A stretch of 64,000 bases of DNA from Bacteroidota bacterium (GTDB lineage Bacteria > Bacteroidota > Bacteroidia > 2-12-FULL-35-15). The notes under the pieces were generated by a model. The model did no database searches. It had not been told where the DNA came from and saw only the letters and a list, made by a program, of their open reading frames with translations. This document shows positions 19,605-38,100 of this stretch, piece by piece. Positions within the stretch are counted from its first letter, which is position 1, and the number at the start of each line of letters is the position of its first letter. A program made the position numbers and the translations under genes. The stretch spans positions 1 to 64,000 of the forward strand of contig SXIH01000058.1 in NCBI GenBank assembly GCA_005772895.1, in the 5' to 3' direction.

Positions 19605-20099
19605 TTATACAGTTTTGTTTTTTTCTTTTTCTAAAAGTTTGAACGCAGGAATTAAAATCATTAAAATGATAGGAGATTGTGCCATTCCCATCAAATACCT
19701 CGCAAATTCATACATTTTCTGTGCAATAGAGTTAAAACACAAGCCAATTAAAATGAAAACCCCTGAAATAACTATAATTCCGAGATAAGTGAAAATGGCT
19801 ATTTTGATATATTTTGAGCTTTTTAGAAAAAGTTTGATCGAAAATATTGTCAGAATCAAATAAAGTAAACTAAAAATTAAAGTCAATAACCACTTTAAAT
19901 TTTCAAGTGTTTCGTATTGATAGTTTTCTAAAAAGGAAAGGAAAGGAGGAAGAAAATAATCTTGATCTAAATCCCAGGCTCTGAGCAAAGCATTTATTGT
20001 TTTGAAAACTGTATCCCTTAAGTAACCTGATAGAATTAGCAGAGCTATAATACAGCTAACGTAGAAGCCAAATTTGATTTTGTTTGGTTTAGTTTTCAC
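19605..20099 (-). CDS. Small membrane protein resembling exosortase-associated proteins
   Basis: This 164-residue protein has about four membrane segments (about 12-25, 67-92, 98-119, 138-155). The first helix is followed by SGYLRDTVFKTINALL, and the last by the motif RYLMGMAQSPIILMILIPAFKL. Small four-helix proteins of this size with a (Y/F)xR(D/E)xxF segment after helix 1 and a C-terminal helix ending IPAF are known partners of Bacteroidota exosortases (XrtF- and XrtX-associated membrane proteins). I recognise the resemblance from memory rather than from an alignment. An exosortase gene lies 4.2 kb away, which supports the reading. The start codon is GTG (20099), and a -7 element TATTTTTG is at 20145-20152. 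An unrelated small membrane protein is the alternative. Confidence 0.55.
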   Translation of the reverse strand: MKTKPNKIKFGFYVSCIIALLILSGYLRDTVFKTINALLRAWDLDQDYFLPPFLSFLENYQYETLENLKWLLTLIFSLLYLILTIFSIKLFLKSSKYIKIAIFTYLGIIVISGVFILIGLCFNSIAQKMYEFARYLMGMAQSPIILMILIPAFKLLEKEKNKTV

Positions 20100-20405
20100 T
20101 TAGCAAAATTACAATTTTAAATGATTTTCAGTTTTTCATATCTCCAAAAATACGTTTAAAGTCCTATTTATCATCAGTTGAATTCCTGATTGATTTTGAA
20201 TAAATTGATAATAATTTTGCCCTCAGAATGATATCCATTTGTGTTTCTGATTGTGGAATTTTGCCCTGAACGAATGCTAATATTAAACTCAAAATCATCG
20301 CATAAAATGTGGATTTGGTCTAAAATATTTGGTTTGGCATTGCAATTAACATAAATTTAGGAATTATTTCATGTGTAAGGAAATATAATAAATTGTAAAT
20401 AAATT
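20100..20405. other. Divergent intergenic region with candidate promoters
   Basis: This 306-base stretch separates divergent genes. On the minus strand TATTTTTG (20145-20152) is a good -7 element for the small membrane protein. On the plus strand TAATTTTG (20212-20219) is a possible -7 element for the surface protein at 20406, although it would leave a leader of about 180 bases. I see no credible small gene, RNA gene or strong hairpin in it. Confidence 0.5.
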
Positions 20406-23400
20406 ATGAATATGAAATTCTACTCCATTTCTTTATCTCTTTTGTTTTTACTTTTTTCCCTTTTCGGGAATTCAGCTACTTATTATTCAAGAATAAATGG
20501 TAATTGGAATACAGCTTCTACATGGTCTTTAGTGTCTTGTGCAGGTGCAGTATCAGCGACAATTCCTACTTCAGCAGACAATGTTATTATTTGCACTGGG
20601 AGAACTGTTACAATGAACGGAGCACCTGGTGCTTGTTTATCTTTAACCATTAATGGAACTGCTAATTGGACTAGTGCATCTACTACTAATGTTGGGTTAG
20701 GTGGACTAACACTAAATAATGGAGCTATTATTTCTGGTAGCACAACTGGATCATTGATTGTATCTGGGCCTATGAATGTGAGTGCAGGAGCATCAGTTAT
20801 TGTAGGAAGCGTAATTCTAAATGTTTCGGGTTTAACATCCATAAATGGAAGTTTTAATGATAATAATACTGGTGGAACAAATACATTTACAAATGTTGAT
20901 TTGAATTCTACTGGTAGTTTTAATAATACTTCTGCAGAAACCTATACTATTACAGGTAATTTGAATACTTATGGAGGAGATTTTCTTGCTTCAGGCGCAA
21001 CCCCAATTTTTAATATTACAGGTGACTTTAATGTTGTTTCAGGTACATGTGATTTAAGTAGAATTAGAATTACTGTAGGTGGAAATACTAATATTTCTGG
21101 TACTCTTGCTATAAACAATGTTCGGGGATTAAAGACTTTTAATAATTTAACTGTAAATGCTGGAGGTTTTTTTAATTCTACTGTATCTGAGTCGTTCAGA
21201 ATAAATGGAAATATAATTGTTAATGGATCCTTTAATGCTAATCTGGGTGTTTTTACCTTGTCAGGAGCTTCTAAAACAATTTCAGGTTCAACTGCATTGA
21301 TTTTTGATGATATCAGATGTAATGGTTCCTATACAAATAATACTTCGGTTAGATTAACAACTAGTTTAACAGGATCTGGTGCATGGACGCAAGGAGCAAC
21401 AGGAACCTTAGATTTGGCAATAAATAATGCCAATTTTACTGTTACTAATTTTAACACTTCTCTATTTGGAAATACCGTAATTTATAGCAGAACAGGAAAT
21501 CAAAATATTAGAATTCCTTCTGATGGAAGTTATTCAAGTTTAACTCTTTCCAGCGGAAGTACTAAAACAATGTTGGGCGCTACAACCTTATCAGGAGGTC
21601 TTACAATTTCTGCTTCTACTACATTAGCCACTTCAAATAATAACTTAATTATTGGTGGCAGTTTCACTAATAATGGAACATTTACTGCGGGAACAGCAAC
21701 AGTAACGCTAAATGGAACCTTGTCACAGACAATTGGTGGAACAACGGCAAGTTCTTTTAACAATTTAACAATTTCGAATGCAAGCGCAATTGTAACTGGG
21801 GCAACTAATTTTAGTGTTTCAAATACCTTGAATGTTGGATCAGGAGCAATACTTTCTCCTAATGCATTAGTTGTTGTTAGTGGAGGAGGAACACTTACAG
21901 GAAATGGAACAGCACGCGTAACAAGGATTGCCGTAACACCTGATTTTATTTCTCAATACACAATTACCGGAAAAACTTTGTCAGGATTGAACATCGATTA
22001 TATAGGAGCAGGAAATCAAATAGTGAATATTTTGAATTATGGTTCATTGACAATTAGTTCAAACGGTGCCCGAACAGTTACTTTTCCAGCAGCAGTTGTT
22101 GGAGTGTCAAATGTTTTTTCACCTTCATCTGTTACTACCACATATCTAGTAACAGGAAATACTATCAACTTTAATGGAGCAGTTGCTCAAACAGTTCCTG
22201 CTTTTAATTATCATCATTTAACATCCTCCTCAACAGGAACAAGAACTCTTGCACCTGCAGGAACAATTGGTGTTGCTGGTATTTTTACTCCTTCTGTGAA
22301 TGTCTACACAATAACAGGAAGCACGGTTAATTTTAATGGAACAATTGCTCAGGGAATCCCCGCATTTAATTATTATAATTTGAGTTCTTCTTCAACAGGC
22401 TCAAGAACTTTGGCTGCAGCGGGTATAATAGGAATAGCAGCGGCATTTGTCCCGGGTACAAATGTTTATACCGTTACAAATAGTACAATTAATATTAATG
22501 GAACAATAGCACAGGCAATTCCGGCCTTTACTTACCATAACTTAATTAGTGCAGGTAGTGCAGCAAAATCTCTTAGTGGAAATATTGTTGTAAATAACGA
22601 TTTAACAATTACAAGCAATTTAGATGTTTCTGCTTCCAACTATTCTATTACAGTTAAAAGAAATTGGATTAATAATGGAACATTTACTGCTCAAAACGGA
22701 GCTGTTGTATTTAACGGAAGTGTAGCTCAAACATTAGCAGGTAGTGGTACAACAACTTTCAATAGGCTAGATATGAATAATACTGCCGGTGGAGTTAGCT
22801 TGATTAGCGGAACTTATATTTTAAATTCAGTAATTAATCCATTAAATGGAAATTTTAATACGAATGGACAAAGTTTTACAATGGTTTCAGATGCGTCCAG
22901 AACAGCAAGGATTGGGCAAGTTGCTGCTACAGCTTCATTAAGTGGAAACTTTATCGTTCAAAGATATATTACTGCAAGAGATACTTCATTTGCAGATTTG
23001 TGTTCACCTGTTCAAAGTTCAACTCTCTTGGATTGGGACAATGAATTACCTGCACTTAGCTATGTTCATACTCCCCCAAGTGCCTTGGCCTCAGCATTTA
23101 CATATAATGAAACTGCTGATGTTTATGTTCCTGTATTATCATCTGCTACTACTTTAACACCCGGACAAGGCTTCGAAGTGTTTTTAGCAGGAGATTATGC
23201 TTATGCTCCATTTGCAAGTACAACGATGAATGTTATTGGAGTTCCTAATCAGGGAGACAAAAACTTAAGTAGTTTAATTTCAAATAATGTTCAGGGCTGG
23301 AATTTGGTTGGAAATCCATTTGCTTCTAATGTTTCCTGGGCAAGTATTTATACAGCATCGGGAGGTGCAACAAGTGGCTTGTACGATTTTATTGAAATGT

Positions 23401-24281
23401 ATGATTATACTATTGGTGATTGGAATGGGTATACTTCAGCAGATGGAATAGAAATAGGATCAGCTCAAGGGTTTTGGGTGTATGGATTGCCTGCTGCTAG
23501 TCCATTGACTTTGATCATCCCTGAATCATCAAAAACTGCTACATCTAATAGTACAATTAAAGCCCCAACTAAAACACACCCTTATTTTACTTTAAAAATA
23601 GGAAGCAATGCAAATAGTTTTTCTCATACTTTTAAAATAGATGCAAAAATTGGAGCTTCTGATAATCTAGATGCTCAGGATTTGCCTTATCGTCCTAGTC
23701 CAAATAAAGTTACACCTACTTTGTATTCAAATATTGATGGATCAAAGGTTAATTTAAATACATTTAATTTAGAGAATGACATTTACTCCTTGCCATTAGT
23801 TGTAAAGGTGAATACTTCTGGTAATTATAAAATTGATGCAGCTGGTTTTGAATTTTTGAACGAATACAAATGCATTCAATTGGAAGATAGATTAAAAAAT
23901 ACATTTATTAATTTGACTTCTCAGAGTACTTATGAGTTTGAAATGTTTAGGTTGGAAGACGAAAAAAGATTTGTTTTGCATTTTAATAAAGATGCAAATT
24001 GTAAGCAATCAATAGCATTAGAGAATATAGCCTATTTTGATAATTCTGTTGAGGTGTTGCCTACTCAACAAGGGAATATTATTAATTTTAATTACTCGGA
24101 AGCTACTCAAACAGCAATATCAGTTTATAATATGTTAGGACAGGATATTGTAGAAGAAAGAAACCTATATGTTAGCAGCCAGTCAGAAACAATACAATTA
24201 CCATCAGATTTCGAGGGCATATACTTTATAAAAATTTCTTCCGACAAAGAAACAGTTGTAAAGAAATTGTTTAAGAAGTAA
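20406..24281 (+). CDS. Large T9SS-secreted surface protein with beta-repeat body
   Basis: This 1291-residue protein has a signal peptide (SLSLLFLLFSLFGNSA) and a long Ser/Thr/Asn/Gly-rich body of short beta repeats (about 30-830). Three repeats of about 50 residues (about 555-715) share FNGxxAQxxPAFNYxxLxSSxTGxRTLAxAGxIG. The C-terminal half (about 840-1215) holds a module shared with the protein at 25123-27534: VQRYITARDTSF, LTPGQGFEVFL, VQGWNLVGNPFASN and GFWVYGLP. A T9SS type A sorting domain (about 1215-1291, ISVYNMLGQDIVEERNL to VVKKLFKK) ends it. It is probably a cell-surface adhesin or structural protein. Its stop codon directly abuts that of the convergent exosortase gene. Confidence 0.85.
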   Translation: MNMKFYSISLSLLFLLFSLFGNSATYYSRINGNWNTASTWSLVSCAGAVSATIPTSADNVIICTGRTVTMNGAPGACLSLTINGTANWTSASTTNVGLGGLTLNNGAIISGSTTGSLIVSGPMNVSAGASVIVGSVILNVSGLTSINGSFNDNNTGGTNTFTNVDLNSTGSFNNTSAETYTITGNLNTYGGDFLASGATPIFNITGDFNVVSGTCDLSRIRITVGGNTNISGTLAINNVRGLKTFNNLTVNAGGFFNSTVSESFRINGNIIVNGSFNANLGVFTLSGASKTISGSTALIFDDIRCNGSYTNNTSVRLTTSLTGSGAWTQGATGTLDLAINNANFTVTNFNTSLFGNTVIYSRTGNQNIRIPSDGSYSSLTLSSGSTKTMLGATTLSGGLTISASTTLATSNNNLIIGGSFTNNGTFTAGTATVTLNGTLSQTIGGTTASSFNNLTISNASAIVTGATNFSVSNTLNVGSGAILSPNALVVVSGGGTLTGNGTARVTRIAVTPDFISQYTITGKTLSGLNIDYIGAGNQIVNILNYGSLTISSNGARTVTFPAAVVGVSNVFSPSSVTTTYLVTGNTINFNGAVAQTVPAFNYHHLTSSSTGTRTLAPAGTIGVAGIFTPSVNVYTITGSTVNFNGTIAQGIPAFNYYNLSSSSTGSRTLAAAGIIGIAAAFVPGTNVYTVTNSTININGTIAQAIPAFTYHNLISAGSAAKSLSGNIVVNNDLTITSNLDVSASNYSITVKRNWINNGTFTAQNGAVVFNGSVAQTLAGSGTTTFNRLDMNNTAGGVSLISGTYILNSVINPLNGNFNTNGQSFTMVSDASRTARIGQVAATASLSGNFIVQRYITARDTSFADLCSPVQSSTLLDWDNELPALSYVHTPPSALASAFTYNETADVYVPVLSSATTLTPGQGFEVFLAGDYAYAPFASTTMNVIGVPNQGDKNLSSLISNNVQGWNLVGNPFASNVSWASIYTASGGATSGLYDFIEMYDYTIGDWNGYTSADGIEIGSAQGFWVYGLPAASPLTLIIPESSKTATSNSTIKAPTKTHPYFTLKIGSNANSFSHTFKIDAKIGASDNLDAQDLPYRPSPNKVTPTLYSNIDGSKVNLNTFNLENDIYSLPLVVKVNTSGNYKIDAAGFEFLNEYKCIQLEDRLKNTFINLTSQSTYEFEMFRLEDEKRFVLHFNKDANCKQSIALENIAYFDNSVEVLPTQQGNIINFNYSEATQTAISVYNMLGQDIVEERNLYVSSQSETIQLPSDFEGIYFIKISSDKETVVKKLFKK

Positions 24282-24794
24282 TTATTTCTTTTCAGCAAAT
24301 CGATTCACCCAAATCATCCAGAGTAGGAAAATATATCCATATATAATTATGGTGAAAGTGTAGGTATGATTAAACTCTGTCCAGGATCTGGAATATGTAT
24401 CTATTATAGCCAAAATAACAACTCTTATAATATTTAGTAGTTGAATAGACAGAATACCTAAAGGAATATAGATTAATTTATATTTTATTTTCCCTTTATA
24501 GGCTATAACAAACCAGGCAAATAAACTAAAAAGTGTTATTCCATTACAATTATCACCAATCCACAAGCCTGATGCACCATCTATTCCAATTAATCTGTCA
24601 GCTCCAGTATAAACAGTATATCCAAATAACTCTAAAATATTTTTGCTAATTGAAACGGTGATGTCGATAACAAATAAGTCTAGTTTTTCATCAGGATGAA
24701 GCCAAAGGTTGTATACCAGGTACCATAAGATGTATAAGAAAAAGACAAGAAATAAAAAACGGACTACAGGATTTTTTAGAAAAGAAAAATTCAT
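24282..24794 (-). CDS. Exosortase/archaeosortase family protein (XrtX/XrtF-like)
   Basis: This 170-residue integral membrane protein has about five or six helices. All three invariant exosortase residues are visible. Cys83 lies in GDNCNGITLF, Arg124 in LLNIIRVVILAI, and His143 in EFNHTYTFTIIIYG. Exosortases are membrane cysteine transpeptidases that cleave a short C-terminal sorting signal from exported proteins and transfer the rest to a surface acceptor, often in organisms or loci making exopolysaccharide. The small size fits the single-domain Bacteroidota types. The likely substrate, a PID-CTERM type protein, is encoded immediately upstream on the same strand. A polysaccharide export locus starts 3 kb away. 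Its start codon follows a strong hairpin, so expression may depend on partial read-through. Confidence 0.87.
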   Translation of the reverse strand: MNFSFLKNPVVRFLFLVFFLYILWYLVYNLWLHPDEKLDLFVIDITVSISKNILELFGYTVYTGADRLIGIDGASGLWIGDNCNGITLFSLFAWFVIAYKGKIKYKLIYIPLGILSIQLLNIIRVVILAIIDTYSRSWTEFNHTYTFTIIIYGYIFLLWMIWVNRFAEKK

Positions 24795-24811
24795 GAATTG
24801 GAAGGGGTAAT

Positions 24812-24846
24812 AAAAAAAGAATCCCTATAAAACGGGATTCTTTTTT
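24812..24846 (-). terminator. Hairpin terminator or attenuator between substrate and exosortase genes
   Basis: GAATCCC (24819-24825) pairs with GGGATTC (24834-24840) around an 8-base loop that includes most of the substrate stop codon. Seven A lie on the plus-strand left side, which is a T-tract on the minus strand. The hairpin therefore terminates minus-strand transcription between the substrate gene and the exosortase gene. This would allow abundant substrate mRNA with less exosortase mRNA. Confidence 0.75.
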
Positions 24847-25070
24847 AAACTATTGTATATTTTAATTCCTCCATAAGTAGCACCTGCTAAAAGGAGAAAT
24901 AAGACTCCACTGTCTAATGGAACAGGACAAGGGGGAAAAGGACCTCCACAAGGGGGTGATATTCCCATACCCATTCCCATACCCATTCCAACAGCAAATG
25001 TGTTGGTAATGAATGCAGGTGTTATAAGGAATAATGCTATAAATGCCGTTTTAAAAATATTCTTTTTCAT
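24825..25070 (-). CDS. Small PID-CTERM type exosortase substrate
   Basis: This 81-residue precursor has a signal peptide (1-26, ending NTFA). A Gly-Met repeat (residues 28-36) and a Pro/Gly/Cys segment with two cysteines (ISPPCGGPFPPCP) follow. The C-terminal sorting signal comprises PLDSG (51-55), a hydrophobic helix (about 56-68) and a basic tail KIYNSLKK. The tripartite P-(I/L)-D-x-G / helix / basic layout matches the Bacteroidota PID-CTERM sorting class, which pairs with exosortases. After removal of both ends only about 25 residues would remain on the surface. The gene sits 30 bases upstream of the exosortase start. I know no function for the mature peptide. Confidence 0.75.
   Translation of the reverse strand: MKKNIFKTAFIALFLITPAFITNTFAVGMGMGMGMGISPPCGGPFPPCPVPLDSGVLFLLLAGATYGGIKIYNSLKKNPVL
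24961..24989 (-). repeat. In-frame GGNATG tandem repeat in the substrate gene
   Basis: The minus strand alternates GGAATG and GGTATG units (12-base period) encoding alternating Gly and Met. Gain or loss of units by slippage would keep the frame and change the length of the mature peptide. Confidence 0.7.
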
Positions 25071-25122: not shown

Positions 25123-27534
25123 TTATTTTTTTACAAACTTTTTTGTAATTGAACCTTTTGATGATTCAATTTTGATAAAATACAAACCAGTAAATCCTTC
25201 TGGCAAAGTAATACCTATTGATTGATTTGAAGCATCCAAAGTGATTGTTTCAACAATTGTTTGACCTAAAACATTTATCACAGAAATGTTTGTAGAAGTT
25301 ATTTCACTTAAATTGAAGTTTACAGTATTTCCTTGCAAAGAAGGTAGGATCTCAATTTGATTACTAAAATCTAAACTTGTAGAAGTTGCAATTTCAGCTG
25401 ATTTGCAAGCCCCATCTTTGCTAAATAATAATGTAAACCTATCTGGATTATCAGTAGAATTCATGCTAAAACAGTATGGATTAGTAGTTAAATCAATAAC
25501 TTTACCTGATAAATTATCTTGTAGTTTAATACAAGTATAATCAACAAAGTCAAACCCAGAAGCCTCTATTTTATAGTTTCCTGAAATAGTAACTTTAGTT
25601 TTTAATGGAATAGAATAGCTATCATTTGAAGAGTTGAAATTGTTAATATTGATTTTTTTACCATCAATTTCACAATACATTTGAGGTGTAGCTTTGTTTG
25701 GGCTAGGTCTAAAAGCGATATCTTTTGAATCTAATCCGTTTGAAGCAATATCAGATGTTGCAACTTTGAATTTATGTGCAAAATTTGAGCTTGTATTTGA
25801 TAGTTTTAAAATAAAATAAGGTTGAATCTTATTGCTAGCTTTAATATCACTTACAGAAGTTGTTGTTTTTGATGTTTCCGGGATGTTTAAAGTTACAGCA
25901 CCATTTCCAGGTAATCCGTATACCCAAAATCCTTGAGTAGGAGCAATTTCAATTGCATCAGCTGAAGTGTATCCGTTCCAGTCTTGAATAGTATAATCAT
26001 ACATTTCAATGTAATCTTCAAGCCCGCTGGTACCAGGATCACTATAAATAGTTGACCAAGCAATATTTGAAGCGAAAGGGTTGCCAACCAAATTCCAACC
26101 TTGAACAGCATTCGAAATACTACTTGTTAAGTCATGATCACCTTGATTTGGAACCCCTACAGTAGTTAAAGTGGTTGAAGGGAAATTAGCATAAAATCCA
26201 CCACCTGAAAGATAAGTTTCAAAACCTTGTCCTGGTGCTAAGAATGTACCTGAACTTGTAACAGCTACATAGGAATCAGCTGCTTCATCGTAAGTATAAC
26301 CAGAAGCAATTGAAGTAGGAGGAGCATCAGTATAATTAACATAAATCAACTCAGATTCCCAGTCAGCAAAAGTTGAACTTTGAACAGGAGATGATAAATC
26401 GCAATAAGTAGTATCTCTAGTAGATATAAATCGTTGAACTGTAAAGTTTCCTGCTATGGCACCAGAACCAGAAATAGGAGCAATTCTGGCAGTTTGTGCT
26501 GCAGTTGAAGTCATTGTAAAAGGTCTACCTCCAGTGTTAAATGTTCCATCAGTAACAGTTAAGACCTCATTAAGCAAATAGGTTCCCGTTGTTAAAGTAA
26601 CTCCTGCAGTATTGTCTATAGTTAATCCCTTAAAGGTTGTTGTACCTGAAGTATTCGAAATAGTTTGTGCTGCTGTTCCATCAAAAGTTATCGTTTCTCC
26701 CGCAGTAGCTAAAAGCGTTCCTGCACTTGACCAATTACCGCCTACAGATAAATTGAAGTTATTAGTATTTAATGTATTTGTAGCATTAATAGTTAAATTA
26801 TTTAACACAATAGTATTCCCTAGTAAACTTTTTGTGCCAGTGGCAGTTCCAGCCAAATGCAAGTTATAATAACCTGCAGTAGTAATAGGGATATTCCCGG
26901 TGTTATATAGAGTTCTTACCAAGTTATTAGATGCACTAGCATCGAAAGTACGACCAGTAAAAAAGCCATTAAACCGTAAAATTAACGTGGAATTTGCACC
27001 ATTTACAAAAGTTGATCCCGCATAGGTGACGGTAGCTCCAATCGTAAAAGTACCAAGGTTAGTAACTGTTTTACCTGCAGCAACTGTTGTATTTGAAGAA
27101 GTTTTGCTAAGAGTTGAGCCAGCCAATATAGTTCTACTAGTATTAAAATTATATGCTACCGAGTTACCAGTAGTTCCTGTTACAGATAAAGTAGTTCCTG
27201 GAGTATTAAATTGAAGTTTACCAGTTCCTAATTCATTACCTGTAAGCACATAATTTCCTTTAGTAATTACACCAACATTTGCTGTCCATTGAATTGTACC
27301 ATCAACAGTTAAATTATTGCAGTATTGTAATGAAGGTATAGTAATAGTATGACCAGCAGAAATAGTAACATCATCATTTGTTCCTGGTATTCCATTAGGT
27401 GTCCATGATGTAGCCACATTCCATGCAGCAGGACCAGCACCAGCTGATACATAACTTGTTTGTGAAAAAGTGTTTAAACTCAAGAATAAAATAAAAACAC
27501 AAATTACTGCTGATTTTTTAGTAAATATTTTCAT
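25123..27534 (-). CDS. T9SS-secreted surface protein, shorter paralogue of 20406-24281
   Basis: This 803-residue protein has a signal peptide (VICVFILFLSLNTFSQ). A beta-rich N-terminal region (about 27-330) begins WNVATSWTPNGIPGTNDDVTISAGHTI, and the C-terminal module (about 350-730) is shared with the 1291-residue protein. Matching segments include NFTVQRFISTRDTTYCDLSSPVQSS, LAPGQGFETYL, VQGWNLVGNPFASN and WNGYTSADAIEIAPTQGFWVYGLP. The T9SS type A domain (about 728-803) ends ITKKFVKK. It is most likely a cell-surface protein. It lies upstream of the exosortase substrate on the same strand, 52 bases away. The two paralogues flank the exosortase pair in converging orientation. Confidence 0.85.
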   Translation of the reverse strand: MKIFTKKSAVICVFILFLSLNTFSQTSYVSAGAGPAAWNVATSWTPNGIPGTNDDVTISAGHTITIPSLQYCNNLTVDGTIQWTANVGVITKGNYVLTGNELGTGKLQFNTPGTTLSVTGTTGNSVAYNFNTSRTILAGSTLSKTSSNTTVAAGKTVTNLGTFTIGATVTYAGSTFVNGANSTLILRFNGFFTGRTFDASASNNLVRTLYNTGNIPITTAGYYNLHLAGTATGTKSLLGNTIVLNNLTINATNTLNTNNFNLSVGGNWSSAGTLLATAGETITFDGTAAQTISNTSGTTTFKGLTIDNTAGVTLTTGTYLLNEVLTVTDGTFNTGGRPFTMTSTAAQTARIAPISGSGAIAGNFTVQRFISTRDTTYCDLSSPVQSSTFADWESELIYVNYTDAPPTSIASGYTYDEAADSYVAVTSSGTFLAPGQGFETYLSGGGFYANFPSTTLTTVGVPNQGDHDLTSSISNAVQGWNLVGNPFASNIAWSTIYSDPGTSGLEDYIEMYDYTIQDWNGYTSADAIEIAPTQGFWVYGLPGNGAVTLNIPETSKTTTSVSDIKASNKIQPYFILKLSNTSSNFAHKFKVATSDIASNGLDSKDIAFRPSPNKATPQMYCEIDGKKININNFNSSNDSYSIPLKTKVTISGNYKIEASGFDFVDYTCIKLQDNLSGKVIDLTTNPYCFSMNSTDNPDRFTLLFSKDGACKSAEIATSTSLDFSNQIEILPSLQGNTVNFNLSEITSTNISVINVLGQTIVETITLDASNQSIGITLPEGFTGLYFIKIESSKGSITKKFVKK

Positions 27535-27828: not shown

Positions 27829-30216
27829 ATGTCAGACAAAAAAAAGTCGAATATAATTGAGCTTGACGATTTAAGATCGTTCATAAAAATATTTGCTAAA
27901 AATTGGCATATTATTTTTGGTTTAATTTTAATTTCAGGCGCTCTAAGTTACTTTTATACTTATAAACTTCCGAATGTTTATTCAGCTAAATCTCAGATAT
28001 TATTAAAATCTGACGAAACATACGATTATCAGAACCAATTATATAAAGGGTTGGGCTTTTATCAAGCATATCAAGACAATGATAATCAGAGAAGGGTGAT
28101 TACTTCAAACGATTTAATAAAAAGGGCCTTATTAAAACTCAAATTAAATGTGTCCTATTTTATTGTTGGAAGACTTAAAACTACTGAAGTTTATGAATCT
28201 ATGCCATTCGAAGTTATTGTCAAACATCTTAACATTCAGTTTTATGAGCAACGTATGAAGTTTAAAATTATTAATGAAAACCAATTTAGGCTTACATATA
28301 AGGATGGAGAAAAAGAAGTTGAAAAGATTTTGCAGTTTAATAAAGAGATTGTGGATTCTGATTTTGTTTTAGAAGTAAAGAAAAATGAAAACATTAATGA
28401 TAAAAGTATCTTAAGTTTAAATAAGACAGATTATCTTATACAAATTCATTCAATAGATAATCTTGTAAGTAGTTTTAAAAACAATTTAACTGTTGAAAGC
28501 ATTGAGAATACTACAATTCTTGAACTAGGGATTGAGGACGAAATACCTTCTCGTGCGATAACATTTTTAGATACTTTATCAAAGGTATATATTGATAATA
28601 CAGCGGAGTCTGAATATATTATCAATAAAAACACCCTTGATAATATTGATAAACAGTTAGCGGGAGTTACTGAAATATTAAATTCAATTGAGAATGATTT
28701 AGAAAATTTTAAAGCAAATAAACAAGTTTTAAATTTAAAAAAACAAGAGGATGATTATTTTGATAAGCTTGTAGATTATGACGCTAAAAGAAGAGAAGTG
28801 CAATTGTGGATTCAATCCTTAGATGCTTTAGAAAAATATATTTTAGCAATCGGAGAATCAAAAGAAGATAAATTGTTGCCCCCATCATTCTATATACAAA
28901 CAGGTGATGATTATTTGAGAACTGCTATTAATGAATTGTATGCGATGCAAATGAGCCGCAATCAAAAATTATATGGAACAACAGATGCTAATCATAATAT
29001 TGCCGAATTAGATAAAACTACTTCCTTAATTAAAAAAAATATTTTAACCTATATAACTAATTCAAGAATTGGGTTGAAAGTCAAAATTCAAGATTTAACT
29101 AAGCAGATTGATGACTACACTGGAATTATTAAAGGTATTCCACAAACAGAACGTGGTTTATTAACTATTCAACGGCAAGTAGATGTAAATGTAAAAATGT
29201 ATGAATATCTATTAGAAAAAAGAGCTAGTACTGTAATAGCACGGTCCGGAATATTGCCGCAAACTAGTATTATTGAAACTGCACATTCGATGGGAATAAT
29301 TAAGCCCAATAAGCGTAAAATTACTTATTATTTTATTGGAGTTGCTCTTGTACTGGGATTGGTAATATCTTTCATTAGAACAATTTTGTTTTCAACAATT
29401 GAAAATATGGCAGAATTGAAGCGATTAACAAATTTACCAGTTCTTGGAGAAATAATACTATCACAAGAAGCACAAGATAATTATATTATTGTAGATAAAG
29501 ACCCTAAAGCTGCTATTACAGAAAGTTTTAGAGCTATCAGAACAAATTTGCAGTATATGGCTAGTGATGCATCTTCAAAAGTTATTTTAATTACTTCATA
29601 TAATCCTGGTGAAGGAAAAACTTTTTGTTCAGCTAATATTGCTACGATAATTGCAAAAGCAGGAAAAAAGGTGTTGTTGGTTGAATTGGATTTGCACAAA
29701 CCCAAAGTTCAAAAAGCACTTGGGATGAGTTCTGATGTTGGTGTTAGTACAATATTAATTGGTAAAACTTCTGTTGCTGAATGTGTTTTACCAACTGAGA
29801 TTGAAAATATGTCAGTTATTTTATCTGGACCAACGCCTCCAAATGCATCTGAAATTATTTTAAGTAAGCATCTTAAAGAAATATTTGATTACGGTAGAGA
29901 ACATTTTGATTTTGTTGTTGTAGATACAGCACCTGTAGGATTAATAACAGATGCTTTAGTAATTATGAAAAATGTGGACATTTCATTGTTTGTTTTAAAT
30001 ACCAAATATGCTAAAAAGCAAGTTGTATCTATTGCACAAGAAATTGTTGAAACAAATAAACTTAAAAATTTCGGATTTATTTTAAATGGTGTTAAGAGAA
30101 GTAGAGCCAGATATTATTATAATTATGGCTATGGTTACGGCTATGGTTACGGTTACGGAAATAGTTATGGATATGGAAATAGCTATGGTTATGGAAATAA
30201 TAAAAAACAAAAATAA
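27829..30216 (+). CDS. Wzc-like polysaccharide co-polymerase / tyrosine autokinase
   Basis: This 795-residue inner-membrane protein couples polysaccharide chain-length control with a bacterial tyrosine kinase. The N-terminal Wzz domain starts near residue 12, with a transmembrane helix at about 31-50 (WHIIFGLILISGALSYFY). A long periplasmic coiled-coil region (about 230-470) and a second helix (about 502-524) follow. The cytoplasmic kinase has Walker A NPGEGKT (about 590-597) and Walker A' LLVELDLHKP (about 617). Walker B is VVVDTAPVG (about 694). In Walker A' the first Asp is Glu and the usual Arg is His, so ATP-site details differ from Wzc of enterics. The C-terminus (about 759-795) is a Tyr/Gly-rich tail, the expected autophosphorylation cluster. 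It is the first gene of the plus-strand export operon. Confidence 0.9.
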   Translation: MSDKKKSNIIELDDLRSFIKIFAKNWHIIFGLILISGALSYFYTYKLPNVYSAKSQILLKSDETYDYQNQLYKGLGFYQAYQDNDNQRRVITSNDLIKRALLKLKLNVSYFIVGRLKTTEVYESMPFEVIVKHLNIQFYEQRMKFKIINENQFRLTYKDGEKEVEKILQFNKEIVDSDFVLEVKKNENINDKSILSLNKTDYLIQIHSIDNLVSSFKNNLTVESIENTTILELGIEDEIPSRAITFLDTLSKVYIDNTAESEYIINKNTLDNIDKQLAGVTEILNSIENDLENFKANKQVLNLKKQEDDYFDKLVDYDAKRREVQLWIQSLDALEKYILAIGESKEDKLLPPSFYIQTGDDYLRTAINELYAMQMSRNQKLYGTTDANHNIAELDKTTSLIKKNILTYITNSRIGLKVKIQDLTKQIDDYTGIIKGIPQTERGLLTIQRQVDVNVKMYEYLLEKRASTVIARSGILPQTSIIETAHSMGIIKPNKRKITYYFIGVALVLGLVISFIRTILFSTIENMAELKRLTNLPVLGEIILSQEAQDNYIIVDKDPKAAITESFRAIRTNLQYMASDASSKVILITSYNPGEGKTFCSANIATIIAKAGKKVLLVELDLHKPKVQKALGMSSDVGVSTILIGKTSVAECVLPTEIENMSVILSGPTPPNASEIILSKHLKEIFDYGREHFDFVVVDTAPVGLITDALVIMKNVDISLFVLNTKYAKKQVVSIAQEIVETNKLKNFGFILNGVKRSRARYYYNYGYGYGYGYGYGNSYGYGNSYGYGNNKKQK

Positions 30217-30246
30217 TTGTCCATTTTAGTTTATTGAAAGTACGAA

Positions 30247-31098
30247 ATGAAAAAAGATGAGGAAGAGTGGACATTAGTTGTTAAACCATCTACAAAATGG
30301 TTTGATTTACATTTAAAAGACTTATGGCATTATCGAGATTTAATAATGCTTTTTGTTAAACGTGATTTTGTTTCTGTATACAAGCAAACCATATTAGGAC
30401 CAATGTGGTATATTATTCAACCAATTTTAACAGCAATAACTTATTCTGTTATTTTTGGTGGTATAGCTAAAATTCCAACTGATGGCTTACCTAAGTTGGT
30501 TTTTTATCTTTCAGGAATAACAATGTGGAATTATTTTTCTGAGTGTTTAAATAAAACATCTACCACCTTTACCACCAATGCTCATATTTTTGGTAAAGTT
30601 TATTTCCCTCGATTAACTGTTCCTGTATCAATTGTCATTAGTAATTTAATTACTTTTTTTATTCAATTTTTACTTTTCTTAGCAGTACTTCTTTATTATT
30701 ATCCTAGTAGTACGGTTATTCATCCAAACAGTTATATGTTTTTGTTACCCTTGTTAGTAATAATAATGGCTGGAACAGGATTAGGAATGGGGATAATTAT
30801 TTCAGCTCTTACAACAAAGTACAGAGATTTAAGATTTTTAGTTGGATTTGGTGTTCAGTTGTTGATGTTTGCTACACCAGTTATTTTTCCTTTAACAACT
30901 TTAACGGGAAATTTTAAATTGTTAATTATGTCAAATCCTCTCTCATCTGTTATTGAAACTTTTAGATTAGCGTTTACAGGAGTTGGAGAATTTCATCCTG
31001 GAAATTTAATTTATAGTACTGTGTTTATGATAGTTGTTTTATTAATAGGAATTTTGTTATTCAATAAGGTTGAAAAATCTTTTATGGATACAGTATAA
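30247..31098 (+). CDS. ABC-2 type polysaccharide export permease (Wzm-like)
   Basis: This 283-residue membrane protein has about six helices. The signature N-terminus LIMLFVKRDFVSVYKQTILGPMWYIIQPILTAITYSVIFGGIAKIP (about 32-80) is that of polysaccharide/teichoic-type ABC-2 permeases. The C-terminal part MSNPLSSVIETFRLAFTG is the usual conserved loop. It would form the transmembrane channel of the transporter whose ATPase is encoded next, 17 bases downstream. Together they export a lipid-linked glycan across the inner membrane. Confidence 0.92.
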   Translation: MKKDEEEWTLVVKPSTKWFDLHLKDLWHYRDLIMLFVKRDFVSVYKQTILGPMWYIIQPILTAITYSVIFGGIAKIPTDGLPKLVFYLSGITMWNYFSECLNKTSTTFTTNAHIFGKVYFPRLTVPVSIVISNLITFFIQFLLFLAVLLYYYPSSTVIHPNSYMFLLPLLVIIMAGTGLGMGIIISALTTKYRDLRFLVGFGVQLLMFATPVIFPLTTLTGNFKLLIMSNPLSSVIETFRLAFTGVGEFHPGNLIYSTVFMIVVLLIGILLFNKVEKSFMDTV

Positions 31099-31115
31099 AA
31101 TAATTATTAGAGAAA

Positions 31116-32384
31116 TTGAAAACTGTAATTAAAGTAGAAAATCTTAGTAAGGAATACCGCTTGGGTGAAGTAGGTACAGGAACTATTTCTCGCGACTTAA
31201 ATGCTTGGTGGGCGAATGTGAGGGGGAAGGAAAATCCCAATTTAAAATTGGATATTATTGAAAAGGCTGAGGGGAAAGTGATCCATCAAGCCCTCAAGGA
31301 TATTTCATTTACAGTAAACGAAGGAGATGTGTTAGGAATTATTGGAAAAAATGGAGCAGGAAAATCTACTTTGTTAAAAATATTATCGCGCGTTACAACT
31401 CCTTCTGTAGGAACCTTTAAAGTAAAAGGAAGAATTGCAAGTTTATTAGAAGTAGGAACAGGTTTTCATCCCGAATTAACTGGTCGAGAAAATATTTTTT
31501 TGAATGGAGCAATTTTGGGAATGAATAAGCAGGAGATAAAAAGTAAATTTGATGAAATAGTTGATTTTTCTGGAGTAGAAAAATTTATTGATACTCCTGT
31601 TAAAAGATATTCTTCGGGAATGTATGTGAGATTGGCCTTTGCAGTTGCCGCACACCTGGAGCCAGAGATATTAGTTGTAGATGAAGTGTTAGCTGTAGGT
31701 GATCTTTCTTTCCAAAATAAATGTTTGGGTAAAATGAGTGAAGTAAGTAAGCAGGGTAGAACCATTTTATTTGTAAGTCACAATATGCAAGCTATGAGTC
31801 AATTGTGCACAAGGGGAATTCTTCTTCAAGATGGGACTAAAGTATTTGATGGAAATATACAAGATGCGGTTAAACAATATTTGAGCAATTCTATTGATTC
31901 TTCTGGCCCATCCTATAATTTGCTTGACAATAAAGATAGAAAAGGAACGGGTGCATTGAAATTTTCAAAATTAGAAATCTATAATAATAATCAGCTATCT
32001 AATAATTTTGTTATTGGTGAAGATATGGAATTGAAGTTGTCTATTAAAGCCTTTAAGCCTACAAAAAATATTAGTATTGCTATTCATTTATATCGATACG
32101 ATGAAATTGTTTTAGCAAACATTGAAAATATTGATTCCAATTTTTTTATTGACTATATTGAAGACGAAGCACAATTTTCTATCCGCTTCAATAATCTAAA
32201 TTTATATCCTGAGACATATAAATTAGGTTTTTGGATAGCTAGTTCAAATAGCCAGGAAACCTACGACCATTTGTTGTTTTGTGCTGAATTTAATGTATTG
32301 GAAGGATCTCCATTGGTTAGAAGAAAACTACTTAAATCAGGAGGTTCTATCTATTTAACCCCTGATTGGAAAAAAATAAAATAA
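31116..32384 (+). CDS. ABC transporter ATPase with C-terminal sugar-binding domain (Wzt-like)
   Basis: This 422-residue protein starts at a TTG codon. The first residues (TVIKVENLSKEYRLGE) already belong to the conserved fold and no ATG is suitably placed, so TTG is chosen. Walker A is GKNGAGKST (77-85), the signature YSSGMYVRL lies at about 164-172, and Walker B is ILVVDEVLAVGD near 187. Residues about 250-415 form an extra beta-sandwich like the Wzt C-terminal domain. In known systems that domain recognises the finished O-polysaccharide terminus before export. A partner permease lies immediately upstream. This argues for ABC-dependent export of an O-antigen-like glycan. Confidence 0.92.
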   Translation: MKTVIKVENLSKEYRLGEVGTGTISRDLNAWWANVRGKENPNLKLDIIEKAEGKVIHQALKDISFTVNEGDVLGIIGKNGAGKSTLLKILSRVTTPSVGTFKVKGRIASLLEVGTGFHPELTGRENIFLNGAILGMNKQEIKSKFDEIVDFSGVEKFIDTPVKRYSSGMYVRLAFAVAAHLEPEILVVDEVLAVGDLSFQNKCLGKMSEVSKQGRTILFVSHNMQAMSQLCTRGILLQDGTKVFDGNIQDAVKQYLSNSIDSSGPSYNLLDNKDRKGTGALKFSKLEIYNNNQLSNNFVIGEDMELKLSIKAFKPTKNISIAIHLYRYDEIVLANIENIDSNFFIDYIEDEAQFSIRFNNLNLYPETYKLGFWIASSNSQETYDHLLFCAEFNVLEGSPLVRRKLLKSGGSIYLTPDWKKIK

Positions 32385-33583: not shown

Positions 33584-34084
33584 ATGCAAAAGGTTGTCTT
33601 AACAATTGTCCTGTTTTTTGTCAGTAGTTTTTTGCTTTCTCAAACAATTCAACGTTCGAGTATGCAAAGTAGTGCCGGTAGTTATGGTAGTTTTGGAACT
33701 TTAGAAGTCCAATCAAATATTGGGGAGTTAATGTTTGAGACTTATTCTGATTCTCAAAATATGCTTACTCAGGGATTTGTTCAGCCAGAACCTTTTCTTA
33801 CTACTACAATTATAGAAAGCTCCTCATTTCAAGCAAAAATATTTCCCAATCCTGTGTCCGACTATTTATTTGTTGAGTTTGACAAGTTTTATGGCGAGGA
33901 GTTAATTATTGAGATTTATGATATTCTTGGAAAAAAATTGTTGATTAATCAAACTAATAGGTCAACTCCCAGCGCTAGCAAACTTGAATTAAATTTTCAG
34001 AATTTGAGTTCCGGATTTTATTTTTTAAGAATGACTTCCTCTAAAAATAAAATAGTAAACACTTTTAAGATCAGCAAAATTTAA
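33584..34084 (+). CDS. Small secreted protein with T9SS type A sorting domain
   Basis: This 166-residue precursor has a signal peptide (VVLTIVLFFVSSFLLSQ). A short mature part (about 20-72) reads SSAGSYGSFGTLEVQSNIGELMFETYSDSQNMLTQGFVQPE. The T9SS domain (about 85-166) starts AKIFPNPVSDYLFVEF and ends IVNTFKISKI. The SAGGS-type, IGE and LTQGF segments are typical of small T9SS cargo found next to fibre proteins in Bacteroidota. It lies two bases upstream of the first fibre gene, so the three genes form one operon. A surface or fibre-anchoring role is an inference. Confidence 0.82.
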   Translation: MQKVVLTIVLFFVSSFLLSQTIQRSSMQSSAGSYGSFGTLEVQSNIGELMFETYSDSQNMLTQGFVQPEPFLTTTIIESSSFQAKIFPNPVSDYLFVEFDKFYGEELIIEIYDILGKKLLINQTNRSTPSASKLELNFQNLSSGFYFLRMTSSKNKIVNTFKISKI

Positions 34085-34086
34085 AA

Positions 34087-36096
34087 ATGAAAACAGTTTT
34101 TTTTAAATGTATGCTGTTGATTCAATTCATTTTTATAATGAATGTGTTTTCATTTGCTCAAACTGCGCCTCAAGGATATAGATATCAAACTACAGTAAGA
34201 GATGCATTCGGATTAAAACTTGGTAACCAAACAATTCAATTACGATTTTCATTTTATTCTGGTAGTGCATCCGGAACGCTGCAATGGCAAGAAACACAAA
34301 TGATAACTACCGATTCAAACGGACATATTTCAGTTGTAATTGGAAATGGAATCACTACAGGTGCTGGTGCAACAAGTTCTTTTAGCTTGATCAATTGGTC
34401 CACTAATGCGTATTATTTGAAAGTAGCGATTGATGATACTGGAGGAAGTAGTTTTACAGATATTGGTTCTACTCAATTGTTTTCTGTTCCTTATGCTTTT
34501 TATTCATTAAAAACGAACATAACAAACAATGATAGTTTGAGTAAATTTAACGATGTTAACTTAACTGGTTTATCATTAAATAAATTGTTGGAATGGAATG
34601 GTTCTTTTTGGGTTCCAGCTATCGACAATGATTCAGATACAGTTTTATTTTCTTATACATCAGGTCATTCAATTTATAGCGATACAGCAAGTAACGTTTT
34701 TACTAGTTCTCCAGTTGACTCGGTACTGTTTGCTTATTCTACTGATTCCGTTTTAGCTAGTGGAAATTCTTTGAATTCTACAACTACAAATTCATCTGTG
34801 CACTCGGATACGGCATTGTACGCATTCTTTAGTGCTTTTTCTGCTTGGGAAAGAAATGGAAATGCAATTGTTTCAACGGCAAAATATATTGGAACGAATG
34901 ATTCTAACGATTTAATTGTTAAAACAAACAATGCAGAAAGAATAAGAGTAAAGGCAAATGGAAATGTTTTACTAGGAGCAACTTCAAATTTAGCAAGTCT
35001 GAGTTTATCTGGAAATGATGGCTTGTTTTCTAGCGGAACATTTGGAACAAGTGCATTTTCTACTTCTGGTGCGGGAACAAAATTAATTTGGCTGCCATCT
35101 AAGGCGGCATTTAGAGCTGGGTACATCAATTCAAATCAGTGGGACACAGCAAATGTGGGAGCACATTCTTTTGCCGTGGGAAGAAATACTTCAACTGGAA
35201 AAGGGTCTTTTTCATCGGGTGATGAATCTGTTACAGGAGATTATTGTATCGCAATGGGAAGAAAATCTAAAGCCACTGCATTGGGTGCTTATCCTGGTGG
35301 TAATGGAGTTGCTATTGGTGATAGTTGTAGTAGTTTAACTGGCAGGTCGGTTGCAATTGGAAAAGGAAATCATATTGATATTTCTGTTTCAACTGTTTCA
35401 ATTGGATTTGAAAATAAATCGGTTGGTGCACAATCTTTGGCACTTGGTTCTTATTTGGTAGCAAGCGGACATTGGTCTACTGTAATTGGATATCATGGTT
35501 CTTCTAATGCAAAAAGTGGTTCTTTTGTTTATTCAGATGCTTCATCCAGTACAACCTTTAATGCTGCTGTTGCACAAGAATTTTCTGTCAGAGCATCAGG
35601 TGGAACAATATTTTATTCCGACTCAGCAAATACAATGGGAGTTACACTTTCTGCTGGTGGTGGCAGCTGGGCAAGTGTTTCGGATAAAAATAAAAAAGAA
35701 AATTTTCTCGATTTAAATGCTGAAGAAGTTTTAGTTAAAATAGAAGCATTAAAAATTAAAAGCTGGAATTATAAATCACAAAATAAAGCTATCCGACATA
35801 TTGGTCCAATGTCGCAAGATTTTTATAATGCATTTGGCTTAGGAGAAAACAATGTTAGTATTTCTGGTATTGATATCGATGGAGTTATTTTAAAAGGAAT
35901 TCAAGCATTGAACTATAGAGTTGAAAATCTGTCTGTGTTAAATGCTGTTGATGAGTTAAAAAATAAAGTAAACGAACTAGACGATTCAGTAGAATTAAAT
36001 AACAGACTCGACATTATAGAAGAAGAACTTAACAAGAAAAAAATATTATCTACTTCCCATAGTCCAAGCGGGAAGGGTAAAAATCATTTCAAATAA
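34087..36096 (+). CDS. Secreted fibre protein: YadA-like head and S74 chaperone domain
   Basis: This 669-residue exported protein has a signal peptide (residues 1-25, MNVFSFAQ). An N-terminal beta domain (about 27-145) starts APQGYRYQTTVRDAFG, and a stalk follows. A YadA/Hia-like head region (about 355-500) repeats xxAIGxxSxAxGxxSxAxG patterns such as SVAIGKGNHI and SLALGSYLVASG. The C-terminal S74 intramolecular chaperone (about 525-625) contains SVSDKNKKENF with the Ser532/Lys537 pair at the spacing used for self-cleavage. In phage tailspikes this domain drives trimerisation and then cuts itself off. A trimeric surface fibre is the likely product. Confidence 0.85.
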   Translation: MKTVFFKCMLLIQFIFIMNVFSFAQTAPQGYRYQTTVRDAFGLKLGNQTIQLRFSFYSGSASGTLQWQETQMITTDSNGHISVVIGNGITTGAGATSSFSLINWSTNAYYLKVAIDDTGGSSFTDIGSTQLFSVPYAFYSLKTNITNNDSLSKFNDVNLTGLSLNKLLEWNGSFWVPAIDNDSDTVLFSYTSGHSIYSDTASNVFTSSPVDSVLFAYSTDSVLASGNSLNSTTTNSSVHSDTALYAFFSAFSAWERNGNAIVSTAKYIGTNDSNDLIVKTNNAERIRVKANGNVLLGATSNLASLSLSGNDGLFSSGTFGTSAFSTSGAGTKLIWLPSKAAFRAGYINSNQWDTANVGAHSFAVGRNTSTGKGSFSSGDESVTGDYCIAMGRKSKATALGAYPGGNGVAIGDSCSSLTGRSVAIGKGNHIDISVSTVSIGFENKSVGAQSLALGSYLVASGHWSTVIGYHGSSNAKSGSFVYSDASSSTTFNAAVAQEFSVRASGGTIFYSDSANTMGVTLSAGGGSWASVSDKNKKENFLDLNAEEVLVKIEALKIKSWNYKSQNKAIRHIGPMSQDFYNAFGLGENNVSISGIDIDGVILKGIQALNYRVENLSVLNAVDELKNKVNELDDSVELNNRLDIIEEELNKKKILSTSHSPSGKGKNHFK

Positions 36097-36111
36097 TTGA
36101 AAAGAAACAAA

Positions 36112-38100
36112 ATGAAAACAAAAATCAAAATCACATTACTGCTACTGTTTTTGAATGTAGTTTTTTGTAAAACTGCAATTTCTCAAACAGTACCTCAAGG
36201 TATTTCCTATCAAGGTATAGCTCGTAATTCTGGAGGTACATTAATAATTAGCCAACCTGTAAGTGTTAAGCTTGGGATTTATAGTCCGACTGTTAGTGGA
36301 ACTTTGCATTGGGAAGAAACACACAATGTAACAACCAATCAATTAGGTTTATTTTATTTTATTATCGGACAAGGAACTACAACAGGAGCAGGAGCGGAAA
36401 CTTCTTTTTCAGGAATTAATTGGGGAGCAGCAACACATTTCATTAAAATTGCGATGGATGAAACAGGTGGAACTACTTATGTTGATATAGATACCATTCA
36501 ATTTTGGTCGGTTCCCTATGCAATGTATTCTTCAACTTCAAGTAATTTGTCACAACCATTAAGATTGCATCCTTTGGCGGATGTTGATACTATTGGAGTT
36601 GCATCAGGATATGTTTTGAAGTGGAATGGTTCGGTATGGTTACCAGCTCCTGACAATGATTCTGATACAGCTATGTTTGCTTACAATTCAACAAATTCAA
36701 TTACTTCGGATACCGCTAATTATGCTTTTAATGTTTTGTCGGTTGTTGATACCATCAATTTTGCTTACAATGCCGATTCAGCTGCTTTTTCAACAAATTC
36801 AACCACATCGGTAAATTCAACCAATTCAAATTATTGTGATACGGCAACTTATGCTTTAAATTCGGGTAGTTCATTTACTTATTGGAATTTAACGGGAAAT
36901 TCTGGAACAAGTGCTGCAACAAATTTTGTTGGGACAACTGATAATGTGGATTTAGTTGTTAAAACTAATAACACCGAAAAAATGCGAATAACTACAGTAG
37001 GAAAAATTGGAATAGGAACAACTGCTCCAACGGCATCATTGCACGTTGTTGGGAATGATGGAATTCTTGCAGAGGGAACTTTTGGTTCAGGCGTTACACC
37101 ACCTTCTGGTGCCGGAACGCGAATGGTTTGGTACCCTCAAAAAGCAGCATTCAGAGCTGGTGGAATCACAGGTACTCATTGGGATAATTCTAATATCGGA
37201 ATTTATTCTTTTGCAGCTTGTAACAATACAATTGCATCAGGTTCTTACTCAACTGCCTTCGGATTAAATTCAACAGCTAGCGGAATTTATTCAATTGTTG
37301 CTGGACAAGGTTCGATTGCATCAGGTAATTCTTCTATTGCTATGGGAAGTACATGCACGGCAAGTGGAGTTTATTCAATTGCAATGTGTAGAGGAACCGT
37401 TGCTTCTGATTCAGCTTCTGTTTCTATTGGATATCATAGCACTTCTACTGGTAAATATGCTTTGTCTTTTGGTTATGAAACGGACGCTTCTGGTAATTAT
37501 TCAACAGCATTGGGGTATTATTCAAATACAAACGGAAGAAAAGGAAGTTTTGTTTATGCTGATCAATCCTCTATAACACCAACAAATAGTACTGCCGATA
37601 ATCAATTTATGGTTAGAGCTTCTGGTGGTGTTGTTTTTTATTCCAATACTGCATTAACTGCCGGTGTTACTTTAGCAGCAGGAGGTGGTAGTTGGGCTAG
37701 TGTTTCTGATAAACATAAAAAGGAACATTTTAAAACGGAAGATGCAAATGCTGTTTTGAACAAATTGGCTAAACTGGAAATTACTTCTTGGAATTACAAA
37801 TCACAATCTCCTGCTATACGGCACATTGGCCCCATGGCACAAGATTTTTATCAAGCTTTTCAGTTTGGAGAAAGCGATACTACAATTACAACAATTGACG
37901 TTGATGGTATAAGTTTACTTGCAATTCAAGCACTCGCTAAAAAAACAGAGGAATTAAAACAAAAGGCAGATGAAGTAGAAAAATTGAATAAAAAAGTAGA
38001 TGTATTATTGAAAGAAAAAGCTTTGTTGGAAAAACGTATCTCTACTATTGAAAAAGTATTGATAGAAAATAATTCAACTGCAACAGTATCTAAAAACTAG
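36112..38100 (+). CDS. Secreted fibre protein: YadA-like head and S74 chaperone domain, paralogue
   Basis: This 662-residue paralogue of the preceding gene starts at the ATG 36112 rather than at the TTG 15 bases earlier, which directly abuts the previous stop codon. The signal peptide (FLNVVFCKTAISQ) leads to VPQGISYQGIARNSGG, the same N-terminal beta domain. The head (about 345-490) repeats STAFGLNSTASGIYSIVAGQGSIASG-like units. The S74 domain again has SVSDKHKKEHF with Ser532 and Lys537. A short coiled coil (about 625-655) ends the protein. Tandem duplication with diverged heads suggests surface variation or hetero-oligomers. Confidence 0.85.
   Translation: MKTKIKITLLLLFLNVVFCKTAISQTVPQGISYQGIARNSGGTLIISQPVSVKLGIYSPTVSGTLHWEETHNVTTNQLGLFYFIIGQGTTTGAGAETSFSGINWGAATHFIKIAMDETGGTTYVDIDTIQFWSVPYAMYSSTSSNLSQPLRLHPLADVDTIGVASGYVLKWNGSVWLPAPDNDSDTAMFAYNSTNSITSDTANYAFNVLSVVDTINFAYNADSAAFSTNSTTSVNSTNSNYCDTATYALNSGSSFTYWNLTGNSGTSAATNFVGTTDNVDLVVKTNNTEKMRITTVGKIGIGTTAPTASLHVVGNDGILAEGTFGSGVTPPSGAGTRMVWYPQKAAFRAGGITGTHWDNSNIGIYSFAACNNTIASGSYSTAFGLNSTASGIYSIVAGQGSIASGNSSIAMGSTCTASGVYSIAMCRGTVASDSASVSIGYHSTSTGKYALSFGYETDASGNYSTALGYYSNTNGRKGSFVYADQSSITPTNSTADNQFMVRASGGVVFYSNTALTAGVTLAAGGGSWASVSDKHKKEHFKTEDANAVLNKLAKLEITSWNYKSQSPAIRHIGPMAQDFYQAFQFGESDTTITTIDVDGISLLAIQALAKKTEELKQKADEVEKLNKKVDVLLKEKALLEKRISTIEKVLIENNSTATVSKN

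Follow-up and report, generated by a model that had tools for sequence, protein, structure and literature searches.

The closest described relatives of the system considered here are found among exosortases and archaeosortases. In Flavobacterium johnsoniae, loss of the exosortase XrtF or of its partner was reported to reduce colonisation and to leave biofilm formation abolished or much weaker (PMC10936215). The targets of XrtF were reported to be unknown, and PEP-CTERM proteins were reported to be highly divergent between their ends (PMC12188702). For archaeosortase A of Haloferax volcanii, C-terminal lipid attachment and a proposed active-site cysteine mechanism were described, with the S-layer glycoprotein and other proteins carrying a PGF motif as substrates (PMC7157517). 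Here, a locus encoding the exosortase XrtX, a small PID-CTERM precursor and a membrane protein was analysed in a 64,000-bp stretch of DNA from a bacterium of the Bacteroidota (contig SXIH01000058.1; the whole stretch is hereafter called the window). These three proteins correspond to a system named in NCBIfam (NF046081, NF046080, and NF046082) that is common in the class. The locus is a genuine member of this system, and its most notable trait is a single tiny peptide product with a nearly frozen core. The original prediction had described the system as little known, and no paper on XrtX or PID-CTERM was found among the openly licensed PubMed Central (PMC) papers listed (CC0, CC BY, and CC BY-SA); curated models for it nevertheless exist, and it is common in the class.

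The predicted exosortase gene was recognized by the XrtX profile NF046081 above its cut-off (186.1 bits against 170, E-value 4.5e-55) and by Pfam Exosortase_EpsH (33.5 bits, cut-off 25.7). Cys83, Asn121, Arg124, and His143 were found to be invariant in all 41 aligned sequences, seven from the genus, including the window, and 34 from outside, with identities to the window protein down to 29%. Cys83, Arg124, and His143, the residues pointed out originally, are in place and are presumed to be catalytic. An AlphaFold2 model of XrtX had a mean predicted local distance difference test (pLDDT) score of 93.1; no solved structure was related to XrtX by sequence, and fold searches gave nothing above the helical-bundle background. 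One match to the enzyme was detected in the genome that contains the window, the assembly of which is 93% complete.

The 81-residue precursor encoded just upstream of XrtX was matched at its C-terminus by NF046080 above the cut-off (29.2 bits against 26, E-value 5.9e-7). The parts proposed for it were all recognized by eye: a start resembling a signal peptide, the motif VPLDSG, then a hydrophobic stretch, and a tail that contains lysine. The Pfam copy searched gave no match for this protein; in the protein database, it and most of the relatives listed for it carry a newer Pfam accession, PF28310. All 36 genomes that represented the taxonomic order belong to one genus, and 25 of them contained an exosortase match. 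One of these matches (G028) was divergent, with 97 bits, and the remaining 24 were clear XrtX loci. All 24 contained one PID open reading frame (ORF) of 74–82 residues directly upstream of XrtX; 20 of these ORFs exceeded the PID cut-off, and the other four were identified from their position and their resemblance to the window protein. Further PID matches in the 36 genomes (E-value 1 or less) all scored 17.1 bits or less.

Between signal peptide and motif lies a short stretch (about 20–30 exported residues) that is rich in glycine, methionine, and proline and ends in PCGG(P/A)(F/Y)PPC(P/S)(V/I)P(L/I)D. PCGG and the second PC were identical in all 24 genus genes. Across these genes, the exported core showed proportions of 0.039 for non-synonymous (pN) and 0.782 for synonymous (pS) differences, i.e., a pN/pS of 0.050, compared to values of 0.344 (helix) and 0.480 (tail). 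Selection is thus tighter on the exported peptide than on the remaining sorting tail. A chance resemblance of the 81-residue ORF to PID-CTERM proteins was rejected on the profile score, the recurrence in every genus locus, and the pN/pS of the core.

Besides this precursor, no other confident PID-CTERM protein was found in the window genome, although a second one is possible in an assembly of this completeness. The only other hit up to an E-value of 10 (contig C37, E-value 0.82) was rejected as a second substrate, as it is a different small membrane ORF. This ORF (MNKTFRILEL...; L053 at G000:C37:9867, and also L080) recurs with weak PID-profile matches, also in the XrtX-less genome G032, and does not look like a substrate.

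The small membrane protein, here called XaMP, had been suggested to be an exosortase partner. It is all-helical and matched NF046082 with an E-value of 7.9e-18, but its 64.6 bits are under the cut-off of 75, and it is therefore termed a homologue only. The same cut-off was reached by seven of 85 class genomes with a match. Despite the score, the assignment is supported by gene order and co-occurrence: within the genus, XaMP was found in 22 of the 24 genomes with XrtX and in no genome of the remaining 12, and 34 of the 56 loci from outside the genus have a homologue directly downstream of the XrtX gene. In one genus genome (G034), XaMP was found about 54 kb from XrtX.

The gene order in the window is glyA – XaMP – [T9SS] – XrtX – PID – [T9SS] – Wzc, where T9SS stands for genes of type IX secretion system cargo; both flanking proteins carry a T9SS tail, as had been noted (Table 1). 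Because the window shares the recurring neighbors, this order is the widespread glyA–partner–XrtX–PID–Wzc order with two T9SS genes inserted. The E-values of the three profile matches and the recurrence of the arrangement in related genomes place the trio beyond chance. Every predicted item was found at the coordinates given for it, and the enzyme, the substrate type, and the partner had been named correctly.

Table 1. Features of the XrtX locus and its surroundings in the window.
Feature	Position	Strand	Evidence
XrtX (exosortase X), 170 residues, presumed catalytic Cys83/Arg124/His143	24282..24794	-	NF046081, Pfam Exosortase_EpsH, residue invariance, model
PID-CTERM precursor, 81 residues, presumed dedicated substrate	24825..25070	-	NF046080; orthologue upstream of XrtX in 24 genus loci
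Predicted exported peptide, residues 27-53 (VGMG...CPVPLD), with conserved PCGGPFPPCPVPLD core	24912..24992	-	Ends judged by eye
C-terminal hydrophobic helix of the PID precursor, about residues 56-73	24852..24905	-	Sequence; inside the PID_CTERM match, residues 50-72
Terminator-like hairpin across the PID stop codon, followed by T's	24812..24844	-	Script search
Homologue of XrtX-associated membrane protein (XaMP), 164 residues	19605..20099	-	NF046082, below cut-off
T9SS cargo, type A tail, 803 residues, immediately upstream of the PID gene and co-directional with it	25123..27534	-	TIGR04183, 45.2 bits
Second, related T9SS cargo, 1291 residues, between XaMP and XrtX	20406..24281	+	TIGR04183, 44.4 bits
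Start of polysaccharide locus: Wzc-type chain-length protein/tyrosine kinase (27829), ABC permease (30247), Wzt/TagH-type ATPase (31116)	27829..32384	+	Profiles

In a survey of 295 genomes sampled from the class, XrtX was found above its cut-off in 79. With PID called at an E-value of 1e-3 or less and genomes counted raw, regardless of kinship, 71 genomes contained both XrtX and PID, eight XrtX only, 61 PID only, and 155 neither; some exosortase match was present in 127 of the 132 PID genomes. Among the 96 genomes with an exosortase of 143 bits or more, 84 also had XaMP and 12 did not; XaMP without such an exosortase was seen in one genome, and 198 had neither. PID-tailed proteins are thus present in genomes carrying XrtX and, as shown above, the enzyme is matched by the exosortase profile, so that neither observation named beforehand as refuting the prediction was made; the arrangement of the trio recurs. 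In the 56 genomes with XrtX above its cut-off and a listed PID, the two were adjacent in 47, whereas among weaker exosortase genes, of which 41 were listed from genomes that also had a listed PID, 13 adjoined one. Measured from stop to stop, the 150 PID frames listed had a median of 82 residues, 141 being 130 residues or less and one 995 residues. Small size is therefore the rule for PID-CTERM proteins and not peculiar to the window, which does not bear out the initial view of a specially small substrate.

Loci outside the genus were taken from the best 79 of 111 relatives in named genomes, 23 belonging to genus genomes and 56 to others. A PID-type ORF was located directly upstream of XrtX in 25 of these 56 outside loci, and in 19 of the 25 two cysteines stand just ahead of the motif, typically as CWPPPCVPIDGG. 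The locus of Pontibacter harenae (L139) combines XrtX with a PID ORF upstream and a homologue of the partner downstream (E-value 8e-5). Recurring XrtX neighbors in the 56 loci, several of which are too short to show them, were genes for Wzc-type proteins (22), glyA (22), Wzt-type ATPases (20), and ABC permeases (15). An exopolysaccharide neighborhood thus recurs outside the genus, and in the window the Wzc-type gene starts 3.0 kb from the XrtX start, in agreement with the polysaccharide locus noted at this distance. Its product matched TIGR01007 with 179.8 bits (cut-off 108), and the ABC permease and the Wzt/TagH-type ATPase matched NF050109 (E-value 1.7e-16) and NF010065 (E-value 6e-64), both under cut-off.

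Within the polysaccharide locus of the window, a 166-residue protein with a T9SS type A tail (33584–34084) was also found, as were two adjacent genes encoding 669 and 667 residues (34087–36096 and 36097–38100) that show weak similarity, 31.1 and 41.5 bits against a cut-off of 60, to the N-terminal domain of mosaic adhesive trimer fibres. A separate pattern was seen in L113, L118, L121, L123, L127, and L133, where a large gene whose product ends with a similar tail of the KKxKQLTGQK type lies upstream of XrtX and no PID ORF was found; such genes encode about 1,400–1,500 residues where complete.

Taken together, the locus probably encodes an XrtX system with one dedicated tiny substrate that is cut near PLDSG and transferred to an envelope or polysaccharide acceptor. 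The precursor would enter the Sec pathway and lose its signal peptide, and its C-terminal helix would keep it in the inner membrane. XrtX may then cut near PLD/SG, with Cys83 as the putative nucleophile assisted by Arg124 and His143, and by analogy with archaeosortase A the new C-terminus of the peptide of about 27 residues would be passed to an acceptor. The most likely candidate is a lipid of the envelope or else a polysaccharide, lipid-linked or exported, from the adjoining Wzc/ABC locus; a glycan or lipid-linked glycan is a reasonable acceptor because the polysaccharide neighborhood recurs. XaMP would serve as the membrane partner of the reaction. The conserved product, presumably anchored at the cell surface, would be the peptide as such, which would tag or cap a molecule of the envelope, and not a large surface protein.

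Several observations weigh against this proposal. In 31 of the 56 outside loci, the position directly upstream of XrtX yielded no PID ORF; several of these loci have little upstream sequence, and several have a large unrelated gene there. In the class survey, 61 PID genomes lacked XrtX above its cut-off and five had no exosortase match at all. PID tails also accompany other exosortases and are not restricted to XrtX, since in L212 (genome G175) a 59-residue PID ORF adjoins an exosortase that falls short of the XrtX cut-off but exceeds the one for XrtF. PVPLD within the conserved core is at the same time the sorting motif, and a payload this short is unusual for anchoring. Finally, co-occurrence in the genus amounts to two independent events, too few for statistical support. 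This follows from an rpoB tree of 26 of the 36 genus genomes, in which the XrtX label changes only twice and both changes agree for all four genes, i.e., including the T9SS cargo upstream of PID. The tree omitted G000 (the genome of the window), G002, G005, G006, G010, G014, G021, and G033, which gave no rpoB match, and G008 and G028, which gave rpoB fragments. One of the changes is G032, which is placed within the XrtX carriers but in which none of the four genes was found, an absence that is uncertain at 91% completeness; the related G034 keeps XaMP.

In another reading, XrtX would make a peptide-capped glycan or lipid and anchor no surface protein; the C-terminus of a fixed peptide of 20–30 residues, usually with two cysteines beside the cut site, would be linked to an acceptor from the neighboring Wzc/ABC polysaccharide pathway. 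In this strict form the reading is tentative and rather doubtful; if true, the conjugate would be a conserved component of the Bacteroidota envelope that has been overlooked because the gene is so small. A peptide-sized exported part with two cysteines near the cut site, and a single enzyme adjoining a single precursor, would suit a plain protease that frees a small secreted signal or antimicrobial peptide, with a regulatory link to polysaccharide. AgrB/AgrD represent this type of peptide maturation. Signal peptides often diversify, however, whereas the PID core is near-invariant across the genus, and no receptor or two-component genes were identified among the recurrent neighbors, for which no systematic search was made; such a protease is unlikely. 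The tight adjacency, the small size, and the strong constraint beyond the sorting tail might instead indicate that PID is no substrate but stays uncut and serves XrtX or polysaccharide export as a small membrane subunit or regulator. Yet PID has a three-part sorting tail matched by a curated model, and PID proteins also occur away from XrtX, for example five in G092 and four in G218, which makes a subunit very unlikely.

A role for the T9SS cargo upstream of PID, for instance as acceptor or carrier of the PID peptide, was considered as well. This cargo adjoins PID in 21 of the 24 genus loci; L046 stops at the contig end, and L031 and L033 show none in the available sequence. A match to it was obtained in each of the 24 genus genomes with XrtX and in no other of the 36, and outside the genus L110 and L157 also have T9SS-type genes a short way upstream of PID. 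These were, however, the only two of the 56 outside loci with such a gene (home-made profile and BLAST), and the presence/absence pattern reduces to the two tree events, which weakens the case for the cargo as part of the system. In addition, T9SS proteins have their own sortase, PorU. Membership of the cargo is highly improbable, and it is possible that it is a lineage-specific associate of the XrtX system. The second T9SS cargo in the window is 51% identical to it over the matched part.

A perfect hairpin followed by T's was found by script across the PID stop codon in 23 of the 24 genus loci (the window and L027–L049), and in the window it ends about 20 nt ahead of the XrtX start. The 5′ arm also encodes part of the KKNP tail, which is conserved. 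In letter-shuffled sequences such a hairpin arose in 0.2%, and in L043, L049, and L039 the stems were altered yet still pairing. The window hairpin was not listed by a consensus terminator scanner, and outside the genus a hairpin was present in one of 25 PID loci. The pS of the PID tail (0.449) was below that of core and helix, which matches the expectation if the RNA is constrained as well. We infer that the hairpin attenuates transcription, so that PID transcript would exceed that of the enzyme.

With one tiny conserved candidate substrate beside the enzyme, XrtX loci make the cut site, the acceptor, and the function of the partner addressable with one peptide. Among exosortases of the Bacteroidota, XrtF and its partner are needed for biofilm formation in F. 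johnsoniae (PMC10936215), and the reported effects of their loss suggest the kind of phenotype to be expected for XrtX.

Compared to the named XrtX system, the window enzyme and sorting tail are above the curated cut-offs, the partner is homologous, and the exopolysaccharide neighborhood is shared; it differs in that the partner is below cut-off and parted from XrtX by a T9SS gene, with T9SS genes on both sides. Similarity to the XrtF system (Fjoh_1448/1449) was also observed, the window enzyme matching TIGR04128 with 85.1 bits and the partner TIGR04127 with an E-value of 5.8e-5, but both are under the XrtF cut-offs (90 and 35 bits). No PID-type ORF was found within 1.5 kb of nine high-scoring XrtF genes, and therefore the XrtF target is not explained here. 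The window enzyme belongs to the same broad superfamily as archaeosortase A (TIGR04178, 51.4 bits), whereas its match to the ArtA profile is weak (16.5 bits). With the PEP-CTERM/EpsH (XrtA) system it shares an exosortase, a sorting tail of motif, helix, and basic end, and polysaccharide genes. The motif here is PLD and not PEP, and a genome-wide search made for PID-CTERM tails yielded one confident PID protein. In contrast to PEP-CTERM proteins, which were reported to diverge strongly between their ends (PMC12188702), the window encodes one small, near-constant payload, which suggests that the payload, and not the sorting signal alone, is the conserved product.

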